Shown: positions 22,952-31,173 of the stretch, piece after piece | Position numbering within the stretch: position 1 is the first letter of the stretch | Layout: every line of letters starts with the position of its first letter | NCBI GenBank assembly: GCA_026992735.1 | Contig: JALWYO010000131.1 | Coordinates: 1 to 33,044 of the forward strand | DNA length: 33,044 bases | Direction: 5' to 3' | Source of the DNA: Deltaproteobacteria bacterium | GTDB taxonomy: Bacteria > Desulfobacterota > Dissulfuribacteria > Dissulfuribacterales > QOAL01 | Translations under genes and position numbers: made by a program | The notes under the pieces: model-generated | What the model was told of the DNA's origin: nothing | Seen by the model: the letters and a program-made list of their open reading frames with translations, nothing else | Databases searched by the model: none

Positions 22952-24796
22952 TTAATAGAACATCAACAGCCAGACATTGGCTATGGCAACACTTATGATC
23001 ATGTATGGAAATGCGACTTTCATAAAACCGAAGAACTTCATGGGATGCCCGGCGGACTCTGCAATACCGAGTGTCACAACGTTGGCACTGGCGCCTATCA
23101 TGGTTCCGTTGCCGCCAAAGCATGCACCAAAGGCCAGGGCCCACCAGAGAACGCCTGAGTCTGCACCTGGAATTACCTGGGTAAGATAGCCGACGATTGG
23201 AAGCATGGTGGCAGTAAACGGGATGTTGTCCACAAAGGCGCTCATGATTGCCGAGACCCAAAGGATCAGACAGATGGAGACAACAAGGCTGCCGCTGGAG
23301 AGGTTAAGCACCCAGTCAGCAATGAGATCCAGGAGGCCTGTCTCCTCTACTGCGCCCACGAGTATGAAGAGAAACATGAAAAACAGGAGAGTGGTCCACT
23401 CTATATCCTTTTCTATGAGTTCCAGCAGATCGATCTTCTTGGTAATTAGGCCGTATGTGAACAGGAGTGCTGCACCAAACAGGGCTGCAATACAGACCTC
23501 CATGTGCCAGATGCCGTGGGTAAGGAACATGGCTATCACCATGGCCATTATGATGCCGCCCACGGTAAGGAGTTGAGCATCCGTTATCTGGTATTCCTGG
23601 CGGAGTTTTTCTATAAAGGCCTGTATGTCTTTCACGGTCGCCTTGCCGTATTCCTTGCCAAAGGCGAATTTGGAATATACGAAGAGCACTATCATTGCTG
23701 CGATACATACCGGTGTCAGGTTGACCACGAAATCCATGAAGGTCAGCCCTGCATAGGAACCTATCATGATGTTTGGCGGGTCACCGATGAGTGTCGCTGT
23801 GCCGCCGATATTTGAGGCAAGGACCTCTGGTATGAGAAGCGCCAGGGGATTGATGCCCAGGGACAGGGCAATCTCGATGCTTACCGGTGTGAGCAGCAGC
23901 ATGGTGGTCACGTTATCCAGAAACGCAGAGGCCACTGCTGTAAAGCTCATGAGGATGATGGAAAGCAGTATCACGTTACCCTTGGCCAGCTTGTAGCACT
24001 GGTAGGCCGACCACTGGAACACGCCCGTATGCTTGAGGATGCCCACGATGATCATCATGCCCATCAACAGGAATATGACATTCATGTCAATGGCATGAAT
24101 AGCGCTCTCATAGGAGAATATGTGGTATGCCGGGTTGATGGTGCCAATGGTATAGCTTATGACCAGCATGGTGGCTGCGCCGAGCATGGCAGCCAGTGTC
24201 CTGTGAAGTAGCTCAAAGGAGATGAGTATATAGGCCAGTATAAATATGATGGTGGCAATCCAGAACGCAGGCCCCTGGACCCTCTTGATGGTAAGGTCCA
24301 CGTGGGCAAGGTATCTCTGGCCGTCAAAGGCAATCCTGGTATTGTCAAGGCTGACCCTGCCTGTAGCATAACTGGGTTTGAAGGCCTCTATCTCGATGGT
24401 GGCCCCCTTTATGCTTCCGGCGGGCATCTCCAGCACGGTCTGGAAGGTTCCGTCAGCCTCTGTCTTGAGGCCTCCCTCTCCATGGGCATGCTGTCCTTCC
24501 TTGGCCACGGGCTTCAATTCCTCGCCATTCAGAAAGACCTTCAGCTCCACGTCATCCACACCCGTGCTGTGCGGGTTGGTAATCTTCCCTGCTATGGCCA
24601 GGGTTTCACCGGCATGAGCAGCTTCTCCCGCTCCATCTTCATGCTTTATGCCTTCATGTGCATCTCCTGCGGCGCGGCATGTGCCACCAAGCAGGAAAAA
24701 CATGGCAGCCATAAAGACCGCTATGGTTATAATCAATGATCCGGCACTGCGGCCCATTAACAGGCCTTTGCCGGGGACAGACCAATCAGTATTCAT
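22952..24796 (-). CDS. ArsB/NhaD (ion transporter superfamily) carrier with N-terminal His-rich extracytoplasmic domain
   Basis: Residues 1-43 contain a signal-like hydrophobic segment. About 44-185 form a soluble, beta-rich (Ig/transthyretin-like) domain with His-rich clusters HEGIKHEDGAGEAAHAGE and EGQHAHGEGG. From about 188 on there are some 12 membrane segments. The membrane part has the ion-transporter duplication: AFLDNVTTMLLLTP followed by ASNIGGTATLIGDPPNIMIG in the first half, and SAFVDNIPFTATMLP with FGGNGTMIGASANVV in the second. These are hallmarks of ArsB, NhaD and P-permease relatives. The carried ion is unknown (sodium/proton, arsenite or an organic anion are all possible). A GGGGGGAG ribosome binding site precedes the ATG. 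It lies 14 bases after the other carrier gene. Confidence 0.85.
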   Translation of the reverse strand: MNTDWSVPGKGLLMGRSAGSLIITIAVFMAAMFFLLGGTCRAAGDAHEGIKHEDGAGEAAHAGETLAIAGKITNPHSTGVDDVELKVFLNGEELKPVAKEGQHAHGEGGLKTEADGTFQTVLEMPAGSIKGATIEIEAFKPSYATGRVSLDNTRIAFDGQRYLAHVDLTIKRVQGPAFWIATIIFILAYILISFELLHRTLAAMLGAATMLVISYTIGTINPAYHIFSYESAIHAIDMNVIFLLMGMMIIVGILKHTGVFQWSAYQCYKLAKGNVILLSIILMSFTAVASAFLDNVTTMLLLTPVSIEIALSLGINPLALLIPEVLASNIGGTATLIGDPPNIMIGSYAGLTFMDFVVNLTPVCIAAMIVLFVYSKFAFGKEYGKATVKDIQAFIEKLRQEYQITDAQLLTVGGIIMAMVIAMFLTHGIWHMEVCIAALFGAALLFTYGLITKKIDLLELIEKDIEWTTLLFFMFLFILVGAVEETGLLDLIADWVLNLSSGSLVVSICLILWVSAIMSAFVDNIPFTATMLPIVGYLTQVIPGADSGVLWWALAFGACFGGNGTMIGASANVVTLGIAESAGHPMKFFGFMKVAFPYMIISVAIANVWLLMFY

Positions 24797-24810
24797 TATT
24801 TCTCCCCCCT

Positions 24811-26667
24811 CTATGCGGAAATGCCGTACACAAACTGCAGCATGGCCATCATAACCACCAGGTAAAGTATGGTCATGCCTGTCCCTGCCCTAACATAATC
24901 AACCGTGCGGTAGCCGCCGGGTCTCATTATCAGTGCGTTGACCTGGTGAGTAGGCAGCACGAACGTATTGGATGCAGCTATGCCGACTACCAGTGCCGCC
25001 ATCTTTGGATCAGCGCCGGCCTGAAGGGCCATGTTCATGGTAAGGGGAACAAGGAGCACTGTTGCACCGACATTCGATGCCACCAGGGTGAAGAACGAGG
25101 TAAGAAGGCCGATAATAAGGAGCAGCATGAACGGAGTGACCTGTCCCATGGCATTCATGATGCTGGTTGCGATGTAGCGGGCCGCTCCGGTTGTCTCAAA
25201 GGCAATGCCAAGTGGTATGAGGCCGCCAAGGAGAAAGACTGTCATCCAGTCAACTGACTGGTATGCCTCGTCAATGGACAGAACTTTCAGCAGTACCATG
25301 CCAAGGGCGCCTGAAAGGAGCGCCACGGAAAGCTGGACGTGAAAACCCAGGGCCAGGGTAAGGGCCAGTATCAGGCATGCCACTGCAGGCAGCGCCTTTT
25401 CCGGCCTCATAATCTCGCCCTTGAGGTCTTCTGTAAAAAGTAGGATGCCCTTTTCCTTTAGAAAGTGGAGCTTCTCCCACGGGCCTTCCAGGAGCAGGCC
25501 GTCACCAGCCCTGAGCTTCATCCTGGAAATATTGCGCCTCAGTATCTCCCCACCCTTGTTGAGGGCCATGGGATTGACGCCATAGGTCTTTCTGAAGTGG
25601 ACATCCCTCATGGTTGTGCCCACAAGCTTGGAGTTCGGCGGAATGACCGCCTCAACGATGCCGCTGTTGTTTGGAGACAGCATCTCTGCAAAGTATTCAA
25701 GGTCCTCCTTGGGCTCCCAGCCAAGGTCGTGCTGAATATGCTTTATGTGTTCTTCCTTGCCCATTATTGCAACAACATCTCCCGGCTCGATCACATCCTC
25801 ACGCACAGGAGACAGTATCATCTTCTTGGTAGCAGGCTTGTAGATAGCCAAAATGGTTGACTTGTAAGTGGGCCTGAAATTCAGGTCATCCAGGCTCCTC
25901 GGCCTCCAGTTTTCAGGGACAACCAGTTCGTGGGGCTTTTTGCCAACCTTAATGGAATAAAGGCTTTCCACCTGACCGGACATAAGGCCGGAATCATCAC
26001 CGGCCTGCTTGGAAGGAAGTATCCACCTGCCGAGCAGAGCGAAATAGACTATGCCTGCAACGAGCAAGGCAAGGCCCATGGGGGTGACAGTGAAAAGTCC
26101 GAACGGCTCAAACGCCTTGCCACCCATCAGGGATATGTTGTTGTTCCACCACTGCTCCATAAGGTCGTTCAAGAGGATCAAGGGGCTTGAACCCACCAGG
26201 GTAATACATCCGCCGATAATGGCGCAGAAACCCATGGGCATCAAGATCCTGGAGATAGGAACGCCAAGCTGCTTGCTGATCCTGGTGGCAGCAGGCATGA
26301 AGAGAGCTGCCGCCCCGATATTCTGCATGAAGCTTGAGATGAGCCCCACGGTAGCCGCAATGAGCGCCATGATCCGGGTCTCGGACTTTCCTGCAAGCTT
26401 GATTATCTGCCGCGCCAGGATGTTCATAACCCCTGTCTTGTCAAGCCCGGCGCCGATGATAATGACCGCTATGATGGAAACAACCGCATTTGAACTCAGG
26501 CCGCTGATAGCCTGTTTAGCCGTGACCACCCCGAGCAGAGGCAGGATGACCATCATCATTATGCCAACCACGTCCACCCTCACCCATTCGAAGATGAACA
26601 GGAGAATGGCAAACACAAGCACGGCAAGAACAATCATAATGTCGTGTGTTAAAATTAATTCCTGCAT
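24811..26667 (-). CDS. SLC13/DASS-type carrier with two TrkA-C domains
   Basis: The 618-residue membrane protein has the plan of SAC1-like and related sulfate or dicarboxylate carriers: five or so helices, a long cytoplasmic loop (about 215-390) with two RCK/TrkA-C units, and a second helical block. The first half includes SSFMQNIGAAALFMPAATRI and CAIIGGCITLVGSSPLILLND; the second contains TLVASNVGATVLLVPLTMNMA and VGIAASNTFVLPTHQVNALI. The TrkA-C units contain VIEPGDVVAIMGKEE and KLRAGDGLLLEGP. Sulfate is a reasonable substrate in a sulfate-reducing lineage but is inferred only. An AAGGAGGG ribosome binding site is followed by an AGGGAA/TTCCCT dyad just before the ATG. It leads the carrier-carrier-Usp unit. 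Confidence 0.87.
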   Translation of the reverse strand: MQELILTHDIMIVLAVLVFAILLFIFEWVRVDVVGIMMMVILPLLGVVTAKQAISGLSSNAVVSIIAVIIIGAGLDKTGVMNILARQIIKLAGKSETRIMALIAATVGLISSFMQNIGAAALFMPAATRISKQLGVPISRILMPMGFCAIIGGCITLVGSSPLILLNDLMEQWWNNNISLMGGKAFEPFGLFTVTPMGLALLVAGIVYFALLGRWILPSKQAGDDSGLMSGQVESLYSIKVGKKPHELVVPENWRPRSLDDLNFRPTYKSTILAIYKPATKKMILSPVREDVIEPGDVVAIMGKEEHIKHIQHDLGWEPKEDLEYFAEMLSPNNSGIVEAVIPPNSKLVGTTMRDVHFRKTYGVNPMALNKGGEILRRNISRMKLRAGDGLLLEGPWEKLHFLKEKGILLFTEDLKGEIMRPEKALPAVACLILALTLALGFHVQLSVALLSGALGMVLLKVLSIDEAYQSVDWMTVFLLGGLIPLGIAFETTGAARYIATSIMNAMGQVTPFMLLLIIGLLTSFFTLVASNVGATVLLVPLTMNMALQAGADPKMAALVVGIAASNTFVLPTHQVNALIMRPGGYRTVDYVRAGTGMTILYLVVMMAMLQFVYGISA

Positions 26668-27191
26668 AGGGAAATTCCCTCCTTCTCCCTAAATTTAAAT
26701 TTTGTACTGCTTATTTTGAAAGCAAATCTTTTTCATAATCAAAGAAATAACTGCCAGCAGGCCGGTCACCCGGTGCTGTTCAAAAGGCAAAGCGTACCAT
26801 GCCGTTATGGAATATCATGATATTAATAATTAGAAAACTAAGGAGCATTGGGAAAGTGAAGAGTAAACCTCTGAAGATTAAGCCCTGAAGGCGCATGAAT
26901 AGAGACCTTCGCGAGGCTGCTATGTAGATAAAGAATAACCCTTTGATTTGACATCATCTTAGTGCCTTTGTCCAAATGTGAAACAGATAGATAGCACCTT
27001 GCACCTTTTTTTGCAATATTTTTGAACGAGATCCTGGCAAACTTTCGAAGCCGCTCCAATATTTTTATTGGCACCTTGCATGTACAGGCTAATATAGCCT
27101 GGCATGTCCTTTCCGTAACAGTGATCCCCACTGAAGGCCGTGCCGAAATTAATGACAAAGCAGGACTCAAAGTGTTACAAATGGAGACGCA
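26668..27191. other. Divergent intergenic region between the carrier unit and the cysteine synthase-CysRS fusion
   Basis: No gene is supported here: a long minus-strand frame covers it but is only the antisense of the fusion gene extended upstream. Notable contents are three copies of GCACCTT (26994, 27001, 27071), of which two extend to GCACCTTGCA, and two short hairpins described separately. AAGGAGGG near 26680 serves the minus-strand carrier. GGAG at 27183-27186 serves the plus-strand fusion. The remainder is AT-rich and unremarkable. Confidence 0.5.
27056..27101 (+). promoter_or_regulatory. Candidate promoter/operator region of the cysteine synthase-CysRS fusion
   Basis: CCAATA-TTTT-TATTGG (27056-27071) and CAGGCTA-ATA-TAGCCTG (27085-27101) are two perfect inverted repeats in tandem. 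TTGGCA (27068-27073) resembles a -35 box. A TATAGC at 27093-27098 lies 19 bases beyond it, inside the second repeat, and is a possible weak -10. A regulator binding the 17-bp palindrome could block initiation. The start codon is 90 bases further on. Confidence 0.35.
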
Positions 27192-29561
27192 ATGAAAAAT
27201 CTGCCTAACAGTATCCTTGACCTGATAGGTAATACCCCCTTGATACCGCTGCGGCGTCTCAATCCTTTCAAGGGAGTAACCATCCTGACAAAGCTGGAAT
27301 CCTTTAATCCGGGGGGCTCCATTAAGGACAGGATTGCCCTTAACATGATCGAGTCTGCTGAAAAACGCGGGGAACTCACCAAGGACAGGATTGTACTCGA
27401 GGCAAGCAGTGGCAATACCGGCATCGGCCTTGCCCTGGTCTGTTCCGTAAAGGGCTACAGATGCCTTATAGCCATGAGCGAGGCAGCCAGCCTGGAACGC
27501 AGGAAGATAATGAAGGCATATGGGGCAGAGATACTTCTGACTCCGGCCAGGTTCGGGACAGACGGCGCCATAGAAGCAGTTTACAAGCTCTTTCGCGAAC
27601 ATCCTGAAAAATATTTTCTCACAGATCAGTTCAACAACCCTGACAACTGGATGACTCACTACCATTTCACCGCCAGTGAGATATGGGAACAGACAGGTGG
27701 AGAACTTGATACAGTAATATCTACCATGGGGACCACTGGCACGCTGATGGGCCTTGTCAGAAGATTCCGGGAGCTTGACCCGTCCATCAGGATAATCGGG
27801 GTGGAACCGTTTCTGGGACATTCCATTCAGGGCCTCAAAAATATGAAGGAGTCGTATAGGCCCGGCATCTTCGACAAAAAACTCCCTGACGAAATCGTTA
27901 ACTGCGCCGATGAGGAGGCCTTTGAAACTGCCAGGCGTTTGGCCAGGGAAGAGGGAATATTTGCCGGTATGAGTTCAGGGGCGGCAGTGGCTGCTGCCAT
28001 CCGTCAGGCATCTGTCATGGATTCAGGCACAATAGTTACAATCCTCCCGGATGGCGGGGAACGGTACCTGAGCACCACTCTATTCTCCATCCCTGAAGAA
28101 CAAAGCGAACCTGCCGGAACTGCCCTGAAATTCTGTAATACAGCCACGAAAAAGAAAGAAGTCTTCGAGCCACTTCAACCGGGCAAGGCCGGGATATACT
28201 CGTGTGGCCCAACTGCCTGCGAACACATGGACCTTTCAATGGCCCGCAGGCTGATCTCGGCAGACCTGCTCAAGAGGACACTGCAACATCTTGGGTACAA
28301 GACAACCCATGTCATGAACATAACGGACATGGACGACAGAACCATCAACGCTGCTATCAGGGCCAACCGCCCTCTGGACGAGCTGACTGAAGAATATGCC
28401 AGGTCCTTCATGGAGGACGTGGCAGAGCTCAAGTGTCTGCCTGCAGACTATTATCCCAGGGCCAGCCGTCACGTCACTGACATGATTGATACCACGGAAA
28501 AACTTATTGCAAAGGGATTTGCCTACGAAAGTCACAGCTCTGTTTACTTTGACGTGTCAAAACTCCCTGATTATGGCAGGTTTTCCCGCATAGACCTGGA
28601 AAGAATAGACGTGGGACGCACTGTTGACCTTGACGATTACGACAAGGACAGCCCACTGGACTTTACGCTGTTCAAGAGGGTTAACCTGGACGAACTCAAA
28701 AGGGGAATCGGCTATAATACACCATGGGGCCAGGCCAGGCCGGGTTGGCACATCGAATGCGCTGTCATGGCCATGAAATACCTGGGGGATTTCTTTGACA
28801 TCCATACCAGCGGCTGCAACCTCATATTTCCGCACCATGAAAACGAAATAGCCATAGCACGCGCACTCACGGGCAAAGGGCTGGCAAAATACTGGCTGCA
28901 CAGCGAGCTCATCCTGGTGCATGGCAAAAAGATGGCCCCTGGCAACCAGAACGTGGTAACGATAAAAAAGCTCCTGTCAGGGGGATATTCCGGAAGACAG
29001 ATACGATTTTTCCTTCTGCGTTCCCACTACCGCAAACCAGTCACCTTTTCTTTAAAGGCCCTCAAGGATGCATGCAGGGGGCTTTCCAGGATAGACGCCT
29101 TCCGGGCAGATGTGAACAGCTGTCTTTATCTGAGGCCTGATGAAAAACCTTCTAAAAAGGTCAAAAAGGCACTTTGCCAGATGGAAAGGCATTTTTTTTC
29201 CTGCATCCTGGACGACCTGAACACCTCTGCAGCCTTTGGCACTATCTTCTCATTCATACGAAGCATGAATCCCGTTATTGCCAGTGGAGATGTCAACAGC
29301 AGCGATGCCTCTGCTATCATCAGCAAGTTCCGTGAATTCGACACCATCCTCGGAGTGCTGGAATTCAAGCGCACCAGGCGCAAACTTTCACCCGAGATAG
29401 TCAGGCTCATAGAAGAGAGGGAAAGGGCCAGGCAGGAAAAGAGATTCAAGGACGCTGACGATATGAGAAAAAGGCTCCTGGAAATGGGCATCGAGCTGAT
29501 AGATACGTCCAAGGGAGCGAGGATAAGATTTACAGACCGTCAAGGCGCTTCAGGGAAGTAA
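27192..29561 (+). CDS. Cysteine synthase (CysM-type) fused to a CysRS-like domain with altered HIGH and KMSKS motifs
   Basis: Residues 1-305 form a PLP cysteine synthase with PGGSIKDR (K45 as Schiff-base lysine), SSGNTG, GTTGTLMG and PDGGERYLSTTLF. The QGLKNM and RPGIFDKKLPDE segments resemble CysM, the type able to use thiosulfate. Residues about 325-789 form a full-length CysRS-like region. Its four zinc ligands are kept: C338 (SCGPT), C523 (HIECAVM), H548 and E552 (HHENE). However, HIGH is DLSM (347-350), KMSKS is KMAPG (580-584), and the KIIKS-like segment after NITDMDD reads RTINA. The C-terminal anticodon-domain tail (ADDMRKRLLEMGIEL) remains. A GGAG site precedes the ATG by five bases, and murJ follows after 16. 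It may sense or channel cysteine, or still charge tRNA by a variant site; sequence alone cannot decide. Confidence 0.93.
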   Translation: MKNLPNSILDLIGNTPLIPLRRLNPFKGVTILTKLESFNPGGSIKDRIALNMIESAEKRGELTKDRIVLEASSGNTGIGLALVCSVKGYRCLIAMSEAASLERRKIMKAYGAEILLTPARFGTDGAIEAVYKLFREHPEKYFLTDQFNNPDNWMTHYHFTASEIWEQTGGELDTVISTMGTTGTLMGLVRRFRELDPSIRIIGVEPFLGHSIQGLKNMKESYRPGIFDKKLPDEIVNCADEEAFETARRLAREEGIFAGMSSGAAVAAAIRQASVMDSGTIVTILPDGGERYLSTTLFSIPEEQSEPAGTALKFCNTATKKKEVFEPLQPGKAGIYSCGPTACEHMDLSMARRLISADLLKRTLQHLGYKTTHVMNITDMDDRTINAAIRANRPLDELTEEYARSFMEDVAELKCLPADYYPRASRHVTDMIDTTEKLIAKGFAYESHSSVYFDVSKLPDYGRFSRIDLERIDVGRTVDLDDYDKDSPLDFTLFKRVNLDELKRGIGYNTPWGQARPGWHIECAVMAMKYLGDFFDIHTSGCNLIFPHHENEIAIARALTGKGLAKYWLHSELILVHGKKMAPGNQNVVTIKKLLSGGYSGRQIRFFLLRSHYRKPVTFSLKALKDACRGLSRIDAFRADVNSCLYLRPDEKPSKKVKKALCQMERHFFSCILDDLNTSAAFGTIFSFIRSMNPVIASGDVNSSDASAIISKFREFDTILGVLEFKRTRRKLSPEIVRLIEERERARQEKRFKDADDMRKRLLEMGIELIDTSKGARIRFTDRQGASGK

Positions 29562-29577
29562 AGGCAAAACAGAACAC

Positions 29578-31173
29578 ATGCCCTCCCCTTCCGGAACATC
29601 CGCCTCAAGAATAGCAAGGTCAGCCAAATCCGTAAGCGCAGCGGTCTTTCTCTCAAGGCTGCTGGGACTGGTGCGGGAACAGGTCCTTGCCGGACTCTTT
29701 GGCGCAGGCACTGCCATGGATGCCTTCGTTGTGGCATTCAGGATACCCAACCTCCTGAGGGACCTGTTTGCAGAGGGAGCGTTGAGTTCAGCCTTTGTAA
29801 CTGTTTTTGCGGAATACCAGGAGAAAAAAAACCCAGAGGAAACGCACAGGCTGGTCAATAACGTTTTCACAGCTATCACCATCATACTGGGCATAGTATG
29901 TATCCTTGGCATCTTTTTTTCAAAAGAGCTGGTCATGCTCATGGCACCGGAGTTTTCCCTGGTGGCGGGCAAGATCCAGCTTTCCACCAGCCTCACCATG
30001 ATAATGTTCCCGTTTCTCCTGCTGATTTCCATATCTGCACTCCTGATGGGTCTTCTCAACACCAGGGGGTATTTTTTCATCCCGGCATTTGCCTCAAGCT
30101 GCTTCAACCTGGGTTCCATCGTGGTGGGAGGAGGCCTTGCACTTGCAATCCCTGCAATGGGCTATCCCGCCATCTATGGCATGGCCGTGGGCACCCTGGC
30201 AGGAGGAGGCATGCAGCTCCTGGTCCAGCTTCCATGCGTCAGGAAGGAAGGATTCAGGATAAGACCCTTTCTGAACCTGCGAGATCCAGGCCTCAGGAAG
30301 ATGGGCCGCCTGGTGATCCCAGCCATAATAGGCCTCTCTGCCACGCAGATAAACATATTCGTCAATACCAATTTCGCATCGAGGTGCGCAGAGGGAAGCG
30401 TGGCATGGCTCAACTACGCATTCAGGCTCATGCAGTTCCCCATAGGGCTTTTTGGAGTGGCCCTCTCGGTGGCAACACTGCCTCTGATCGCCAAGCAGGC
30501 AGCCAAGGGAGCATCAAGAGAGCTCGGGGAGACCATGGTGTCTTCACTGGTCCTGGCCTTCGCCCTGACGCTGCCTGCAGCTATCGGCCTTTGGCTCCTG
30601 GCCGAGCCCATTATTGCCCTGATATTCCAGCACGGGCATTTTACCCGGTTCGATACCGTAATGACTGCCCAGGCCCTGAAATTTTACTCCATAGGGTTGA
30701 TGGCATACTCGGCAGTAAAGATCATAGTACCTGTTTACTATGCCCTGGATGACACTAAATGGCCGGTAATCGGGAGTTTCATGTCCGTTGCGGCAAACGT
30801 GATCATAATACTTCTCACCCTGGACAGGTTCCAGCACAGGGCCATAGCACTCTCAACCTCGGTTACCATAATATTCAACTTCCTCTTTCTGGCAGTGATC
30901 CTCTACAGAAAAACCGGGGGATACCCTGTAAGACGGCTGATAGTATCTCTCGGTAAGATAGCAGTGGCCTCTGCCCTGATGGGTGCCGTGGTTCTTGTCA
31001 TATCCACATGGATGGATTTCGGACAGGGAATGGCCGCCCTGGCCCTTCAGGTATCAGTAAGTATTGCAGCTGGTGTTATCGTATATGCCATGGCTGTACT
31101 GCTGGTAGGACTTGGGGAGGCAAGGGAATTCATGGAGGCAGTAAAAGGCATGATCCGGCGGGCAGTAGGTTGA
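29578..31173 (+). CDS. murJ: Lipid II flippase MurJ
   Basis: MurJ moves lipid II across the inner membrane for peptidoglycan synthesis. The 531-residue protein has about 14 membrane helices and the MOP-superfamily MviN pattern: SRLLGLVREQVLAGLFGAG near the start (25-43), then AMDAFVVAFRIPNLLRDLFAEGALSSAFV, whose RIPNLLR and EGA segments are characteristic. Arginines in the central cavity region (SRLLGLVRE, RIPNLLRR-type) are kept. It begins 16 bases after the fusion gene and probably shares its transcript, followed by a 23-base gap to the convergent histidine kinase. Nothing is unusual except that partnership. Confidence 0.95.
   Translation: MPSPSGTSASRIARSAKSVSAAVFLSRLLGLVREQVLAGLFGAGTAMDAFVVAFRIPNLLRDLFAEGALSSAFVTVFAEYQEKKNPEETHRLVNNVFTAITIILGIVCILGIFFSKELVMLMAPEFSLVAGKIQLSTSLTMIMFPFLLLISISALLMGLLNTRGYFFIPAFASSCFNLGSIVVGGGLALAIPAMGYPAIYGMAVGTLAGGGMQLLVQLPCVRKEGFRIRPFLNLRDPGLRKMGRLVIPAIIGLSATQINIFVNTNFASRCAEGSVAWLNYAFRLMQFPIGLFGVALSVATLPLIAKQAAKGASRELGETMVSSLVLAFALTLPAAIGLWLLAEPIIALIFQHGHFTRFDTVMTAQALKFYSIGLMAYSAVKIIVPVYYALDDTKWPVIGSFMSVAANVIIILLTLDRFQHRAIALSTSVTIIFNFLFLAVILYRKTGGYPVRRLIVSLGKIAVASALMGAVVLVISTWMDFGQGMAALALQVSVSIAAGVIVYAMAVLLVGLGEAREFMEAVKGMIRRAVG

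Follow-up and report, generated by a model that had tools for sequence, protein, structure and literature searches.

Cysteine synthase fused to a cysteinyl-tRNA synthetase-like half without ATP-using motifs: a candidate tRNA-Cys- and cysteine-responsive enzyme of Thermodesulfobacteriota

A single gene of a deltaproteobacterial genome joins a CysM-type cysteine synthase to a cysteinyl-tRNA synthetase (CysRS)-like half. The second half has lost HIGH and KMSKS, the signatures of ATP use in CysRS, and retains the residues expected to read the tRNA-Cys anticodon together with the zinc ligands. We tentatively propose, at a probability of about 45%, that the fusion is a cysteine synthase with a built-in, non-charging regulator that would bind tRNA-Cys or cysteine. 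Since the ATP signatures are lost and the tRNA-reading residues and, mostly, the zinc site are kept, cysteine production probably responds to cysteine or tRNA-Cys. No title or abstract opening in the literature searched describes this fusion.

Domain organization and predicted structure

The window, i.e. the whole stretch of DNA analysed (33,044 nucleotides), contains the following features.

27183–27186, plus strand: GGAG, probable ribosome-binding site 5 nt before the ATG (direct sequence reading)
27192–29561, plus strand: complete fusion gene, 789 codons and stop, one uninterrupted frame; homologues begin at or near the same place
27210–28085, plus strand: CysM-type cysteine synthase domain, residues 7–298 (family profiles, structure matches)
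27324–27326, plus strand: codon of the PLP lysine K45, within the cysteine synthase domain
28086–28121, plus strand: interdomain linker, residues 299–310 (AlphaFold2 model, low confidence at 303–308)
28122–29111, plus strand: CysRS-like catalytic domain, residues 311–640 (family profiles, model, structure matches)
28203–28205, plus strand: zinc ligand C338, E. coli C28 (alignment to E. coli CysRS)
28230–28241, plus strand: HIGH position, reading DLSM, residues 347–350 (alignment)
28758–28760, plus strand: zinc ligand C523, E. coli C209 (alignment to E. coli CysRS)
28833–28847, plus strand: zinc ligands H548 and E552, E. coli H234 and E238 (alignment)
28929–28943, plus strand: KMSKS position, reading KMAPG, residues 580–584 (alignment)
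29112–29381, plus strand: helical bundle, residues 641–730, fast-evolving (model and dN/dS comparison)
29382–29525, plus strand: anticodon-binding domain, residues 731–778 (Pfam CysS_C, model)
29418–29504, plus strand: anticodon-reading set R743, R747, F752, D756, R759 and D771 (alignment)
29578–31173, plus strand: murJ, starting 16 bases past the fusion stop; a conserved neighbour in this organism's own order only

The initial annotation had described a single 789-codon frame joining a complete CysM-type domain to a full-length CysRS-like domain, and profile searches confirmed both this description and its coordinates. The NCBIfam cysKM profile matches residues 9–298 with 355 bits, above the TIGR01136 cut-off, and cysS matches residues 312–778 with 400 bits against a cut-off of 340; because this equivalog cut-off is passed, automatic pipelines may label the fusion as CysRS. 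Pfam assigns PALP (9–287), tRNA-synt_1e (325–628), DALR_2 (671–724) and CysS_C (730–772). The AlphaFold2 model has a mean pLDDT of 89.7, with both halves confident and a weak linker, and its pTM of 0.62 means that the mutual arrangement of the domains is not fixed by the model. Foldseek matched the model to CysRS (8qhp, and tRNA-bound 1u0b) and to cysteine synthase B.

The first half has the PALP fold, the PLP lysine K45 and both the SSGNTG and GTTG loops, and is 46% identical to the E. coli CysM structure. Like CysM (O-acetylserine sulfhydrylase B), it has an intact PLP lysine and substrate loop, whereas CysM lacks the C-terminal CysRS-like half. By fold and motifs it is predicted to be a catalytically active cysteine synthase. 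The motif GLKNM around K216 is common to stand-alone CysM-like enzymes; by comparison with the M. tuberculosis enzyme, whose structure is not among the close structure-search matches, K216 is at most a candidate marker of O-phosphoserine use.

The gene neighbourhood was rejected as a functional clue, as murJ alone recurs, and only within the order; no murJ was seen beside the fusion in the neighbourhoods of relatives outside it. An ARMT1-like phosphatase gene sometimes sits between the fusion and murJ in relatives of the same order. Upstream of the fusion, the window carries two adjoining SLC13/CitMHS-type transporters on the minus strand (22952–26667).

Distribution and single origin

The fusion is present in at least 165 of 394 sampled species genomes of Thermodesulfobacteriota and in at least 106 of 248 genera (E ≤ 1e-150), the species count being a lower bound because this threshold may drop short partial copies. 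An assembly chimera is ruled out, since the same full-length fusion recurs across these genomes, single-contig ones included. Named carriers among the matches listed are Desulforapulum, Desulfoluna, Desulfobulbus, Desulfocapsa, Desulfobacula and Caldimicrobium; the titles of some records use broad or outdated names (Deltaproteobacteria, shown under Myxococcota in the CysM-half tree). A Desulfofundulus match (L105) was rejected as tandem stand-alone enzymes.

In quick trees, the fusions fall on one side of a single branch, whose support is 96 in the tree of the CysM half and 100 in that of the CysRS half. The fusion thus has a single origin, with one clade for each half, and species as distant as 42% identity still have the full-length protein. 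One 99%-complete genome of the same family (G008) has no fusion match and contains CysE and a stand-alone CysK. In another genome (L069, G059), the fusion is broken into ORFs of 704 and 211 residues, possibly by a frameshift or sequencing error. A different CysRS-like protein (L081:963-3188, G065:C1) has HLGN, KMAKS and the zinc ligands, and its ORF continues into a family-2 glycosyltransferase domain.

Loss of the ATP-using motifs

We scored 63 fusions at 113 positions that are invariant in ten canonical CysRS (E. coli numbering), and mean retention was 69.5%. K269 and G225 are retained in none, the second histidine of HIGH (H40) in 6% and G226 in 13%, and the GGG loop is replaced. The reading of HIGH as DLSM and of KMSKS as KMAPG, reported in the initial annotation, was confirmed; the tree suggests that this exact state was derived within the organism's own family, and it is lineage-specific. 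Extended to homologues, the loss of ATP motifs holds in that none of the 63 fusions carries HIGH and KMSKS together, but it is graded: many order-level relatives read HLGL and KMSRSxGN, and part of the clade keeps H37 and KMSRS. Some ATP use is therefore possible in the part of the clade where H37 and KMSRS persist. In its own lineage, the second half is predicted from the motif losses to be incapable of activating cysteine and charging tRNA.

Many relatives retain H37, K266 and KMSRSxGN, which would fit an active ligase that, at least in the KMSRS lineages, activates cysteine for attachment to tRNA or to a different acceptor in the manner of MshC, the mycothiol cysteine ligase. We consider this quite improbable, given the absence of K269 from all 63 fusions, the replaced GGG loop and the lack of both HIGH and KMSKS in the organism's own lineage. 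MshC is likewise a CysRS paralogue and a structural match, but it has no cysteine synthase fusion; the fusion scores 191 bits on the MshC profile TIGR03447, below the cut-off of 485, and the match ends ahead of the anticodon domain. The surrounding genes also do not resemble a biosynthetic cluster.

One report ties the persulfide activity of E. coli CysRS to the lysines of 73KIIK76 and 266KMSK269 (PMC10655014). That the fusion moonlights as a cysteine persulfide synthase, as reported for CysRS, is very improbable: K266 is retained as K580, but K73 is replaced by R383 and K269 by P583, in agreement with the initial annotation, which had found these lysines mostly gone.

Conservation of the zinc site and the anticodon-reading residues

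All four zinc ligands given in the initial annotation (C338, C523, H548 and E552) are intact by alignment to E. coli CysRS, and across the 63 fusions C28, C209, H234 and E238 are retained in 92, 94, 100 and 84%, respectively. W205 and T68 are also mostly retained. The anticodon-reading set, which aligns with E. coli R423, R427, W432, D436, R439 and D451, respectively, is more invariant still: R423, D436, R439 and D451 are kept in all 63 fusions and R427 in 94% (P about 0.003 against random sets). According to a study of E. coli CysRS (PMC12684709), R427 and D436 bond to G34 of the anticodon, W432 stacks on G34 and R423 makes a water-mediated contact with it. We infer that R439 and D451 are anticodon contacts as well, and the invariance of these domain residues may be partly structural. 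Eleven of the 63 fusions have an altered zinc site and still hold the anticodon set, with lysine replacing R427 in two cases.

These observations bear on a pure feedback mechanism of the HisZ type, in which free cysteine sensed at the zinc pocket would lead to inhibition of the synthase, with tRNA uninvolved. The mostly retained zinc ligands and W205/T68 are in line with it, but we regard it as unlikely, since the zinc site varies more than the anticodon residues, which persist in the 11 zinc-altered copies. As these copies keep the domain, cysteine sensing is not universal in the clade. The earlier suggestion of a sensor or tRNA/ligand-binding module that tunes the synthase is still the best reading, with the qualification that a purely cysteine-sensing account is incomplete. 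A retained tRNA-reading site without catalytic motifs would equally suit a scaffold or channel that recruits tRNA-Cys or the translation machinery and delivers cysteine at its site of use, with no allostery; we consider this improbable.

Selection and the separate canonical CysRS

The genome (2.31 Mb, 98.85% complete) encodes a separate canonical CysRS of 490 residues with HIGH and KMSKS, the second cysS that the initial annotation had proposed to look for. The fusion is thus not the sole CysRS and is dispensable for tRNA charging.

The pseudo-CysRS half is under purifying selection, with dN/dS like that of the true CysRS encoded in these genomes. In the species pair G017/G011, its catalytic part has a value of 0.064 and the true CysRS 0.084; in the pair G013/G015, where changes are few, the values are 0.123 and 0.054, respectively. 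Both pairs lie far below 1. Several motifs were lost repeatedly along the CysRS-half tree, as a decaying domain retained merely through in-frame fusion might show. This explanation is hardly credible in view of the dN/dS, the full length down to 42% identity and the invariant anticodon residues. Random decay is thus disfavoured, and the view that kept zinc ligands and lost ATP motifs are not a pseudogene pattern was upheld, as the pattern holds across the clade.

Pathway context

CysE, the serine acetyltransferase, is the usual cysteine-inhibited feedback step. We surveyed 98 relatives and the organism's own genome, with a threshold of 90 bits for a CysE match. Among the 52 fusion genomes with a completeness of 90% or more, 37 lack both a stand-alone CysK/M and a CysE match of at least 90 bits, 2 have a weaker CysE-like match and 13 also have CysE and a stand-alone CysK, counts that ignore relatedness. 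Judged by these searches, the fusion is usually the sole predicted cysteine synthase, and the genomes concerned lack any recognisable serine acetyltransferase. The absence of CysE from most fusion-only genomes would also suit pure cysteine feedback; the 13 genomes with CysE and CysK mean, however, that missing feedback cannot be the full explanation. Several CysK/CysE pairs in the relatives adjoin by coordinates.

Profile searches of the organism's own genome found no CysE above the cut-off and no MetX match. At the end of one contig (C93), a SerA-like gene adjoins an ORF that resembles an aminotransferase and matches SerC weakly (40.7 bits, cut-off 443.6), which makes a supply of O-phosphoserine possible.

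Proposed function and relation to known systems

In the preferred reading, a cysteine synthase with a non-charging regulator, the pseudo-CysRS half would bind tRNA-Cys by way of the anticodon; in copies that keep zinc, the old amino-acid pocket would hold cysteine, or the cysteine of Cys-tRNA. Occupancy of this half would then alter the activity of the attached synthase. The direction is a guess: abundant charged tRNA or cysteine might switch the synthase off, or uncharged tRNA might switch it on. A more specific version, in which the fused, ATP-dead class I synthetase governs the synthase by directly sensing the charging of tRNA-Cys, is possible but doubtful.

The closest parallel is HisZ, which a 2022 review of synthetase paralogues describes as a HisRS paralogue that lacks adenylation activity, regulates HisG and mediates histidine feedback (PMC9437257). 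Like HisZ, the fusion is synthetase-derived, is not expected to activate its amino acid and is linked to an enzyme that makes that amino acid. HisZ derives from class II HisRS and acts on the first step of its pathway, whereas the fusion derives from class I CysRS, is covalent, keeps the anticodon-binding domain and would exert its putative regulatory role on the last step. Passages of the same review name MshC and CysRS* as CysRS paralogues (PMC9437257). CysRS* of Desulfobacterales is, like the fusion, a second, noncanonical CysRS in this phylum, but as described there it lacks an anticodon-binding domain and charges SelC* (PMC9437257). The fusion shares with bacterial CysS the full-length fold, the zinc ligands and the anticodon-reading residues, and differs in its missing HIGH and K269, its replaced GGG loop and the presence of a separate true CysS in the genome.

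If the synthase is indeed governed by the charging of tRNA-Cys, the fusion would couple cysteine synthesis to translation by a feedback that takes the place of control through CysE. The regulatory proposal, if correct, would show how cysteine synthesis can be controlled without the CysE step in numerous members of a phylum in which sulfate reducers abound, and the synthetase-derived regulators would gain a tRNA-reading representative of class I.
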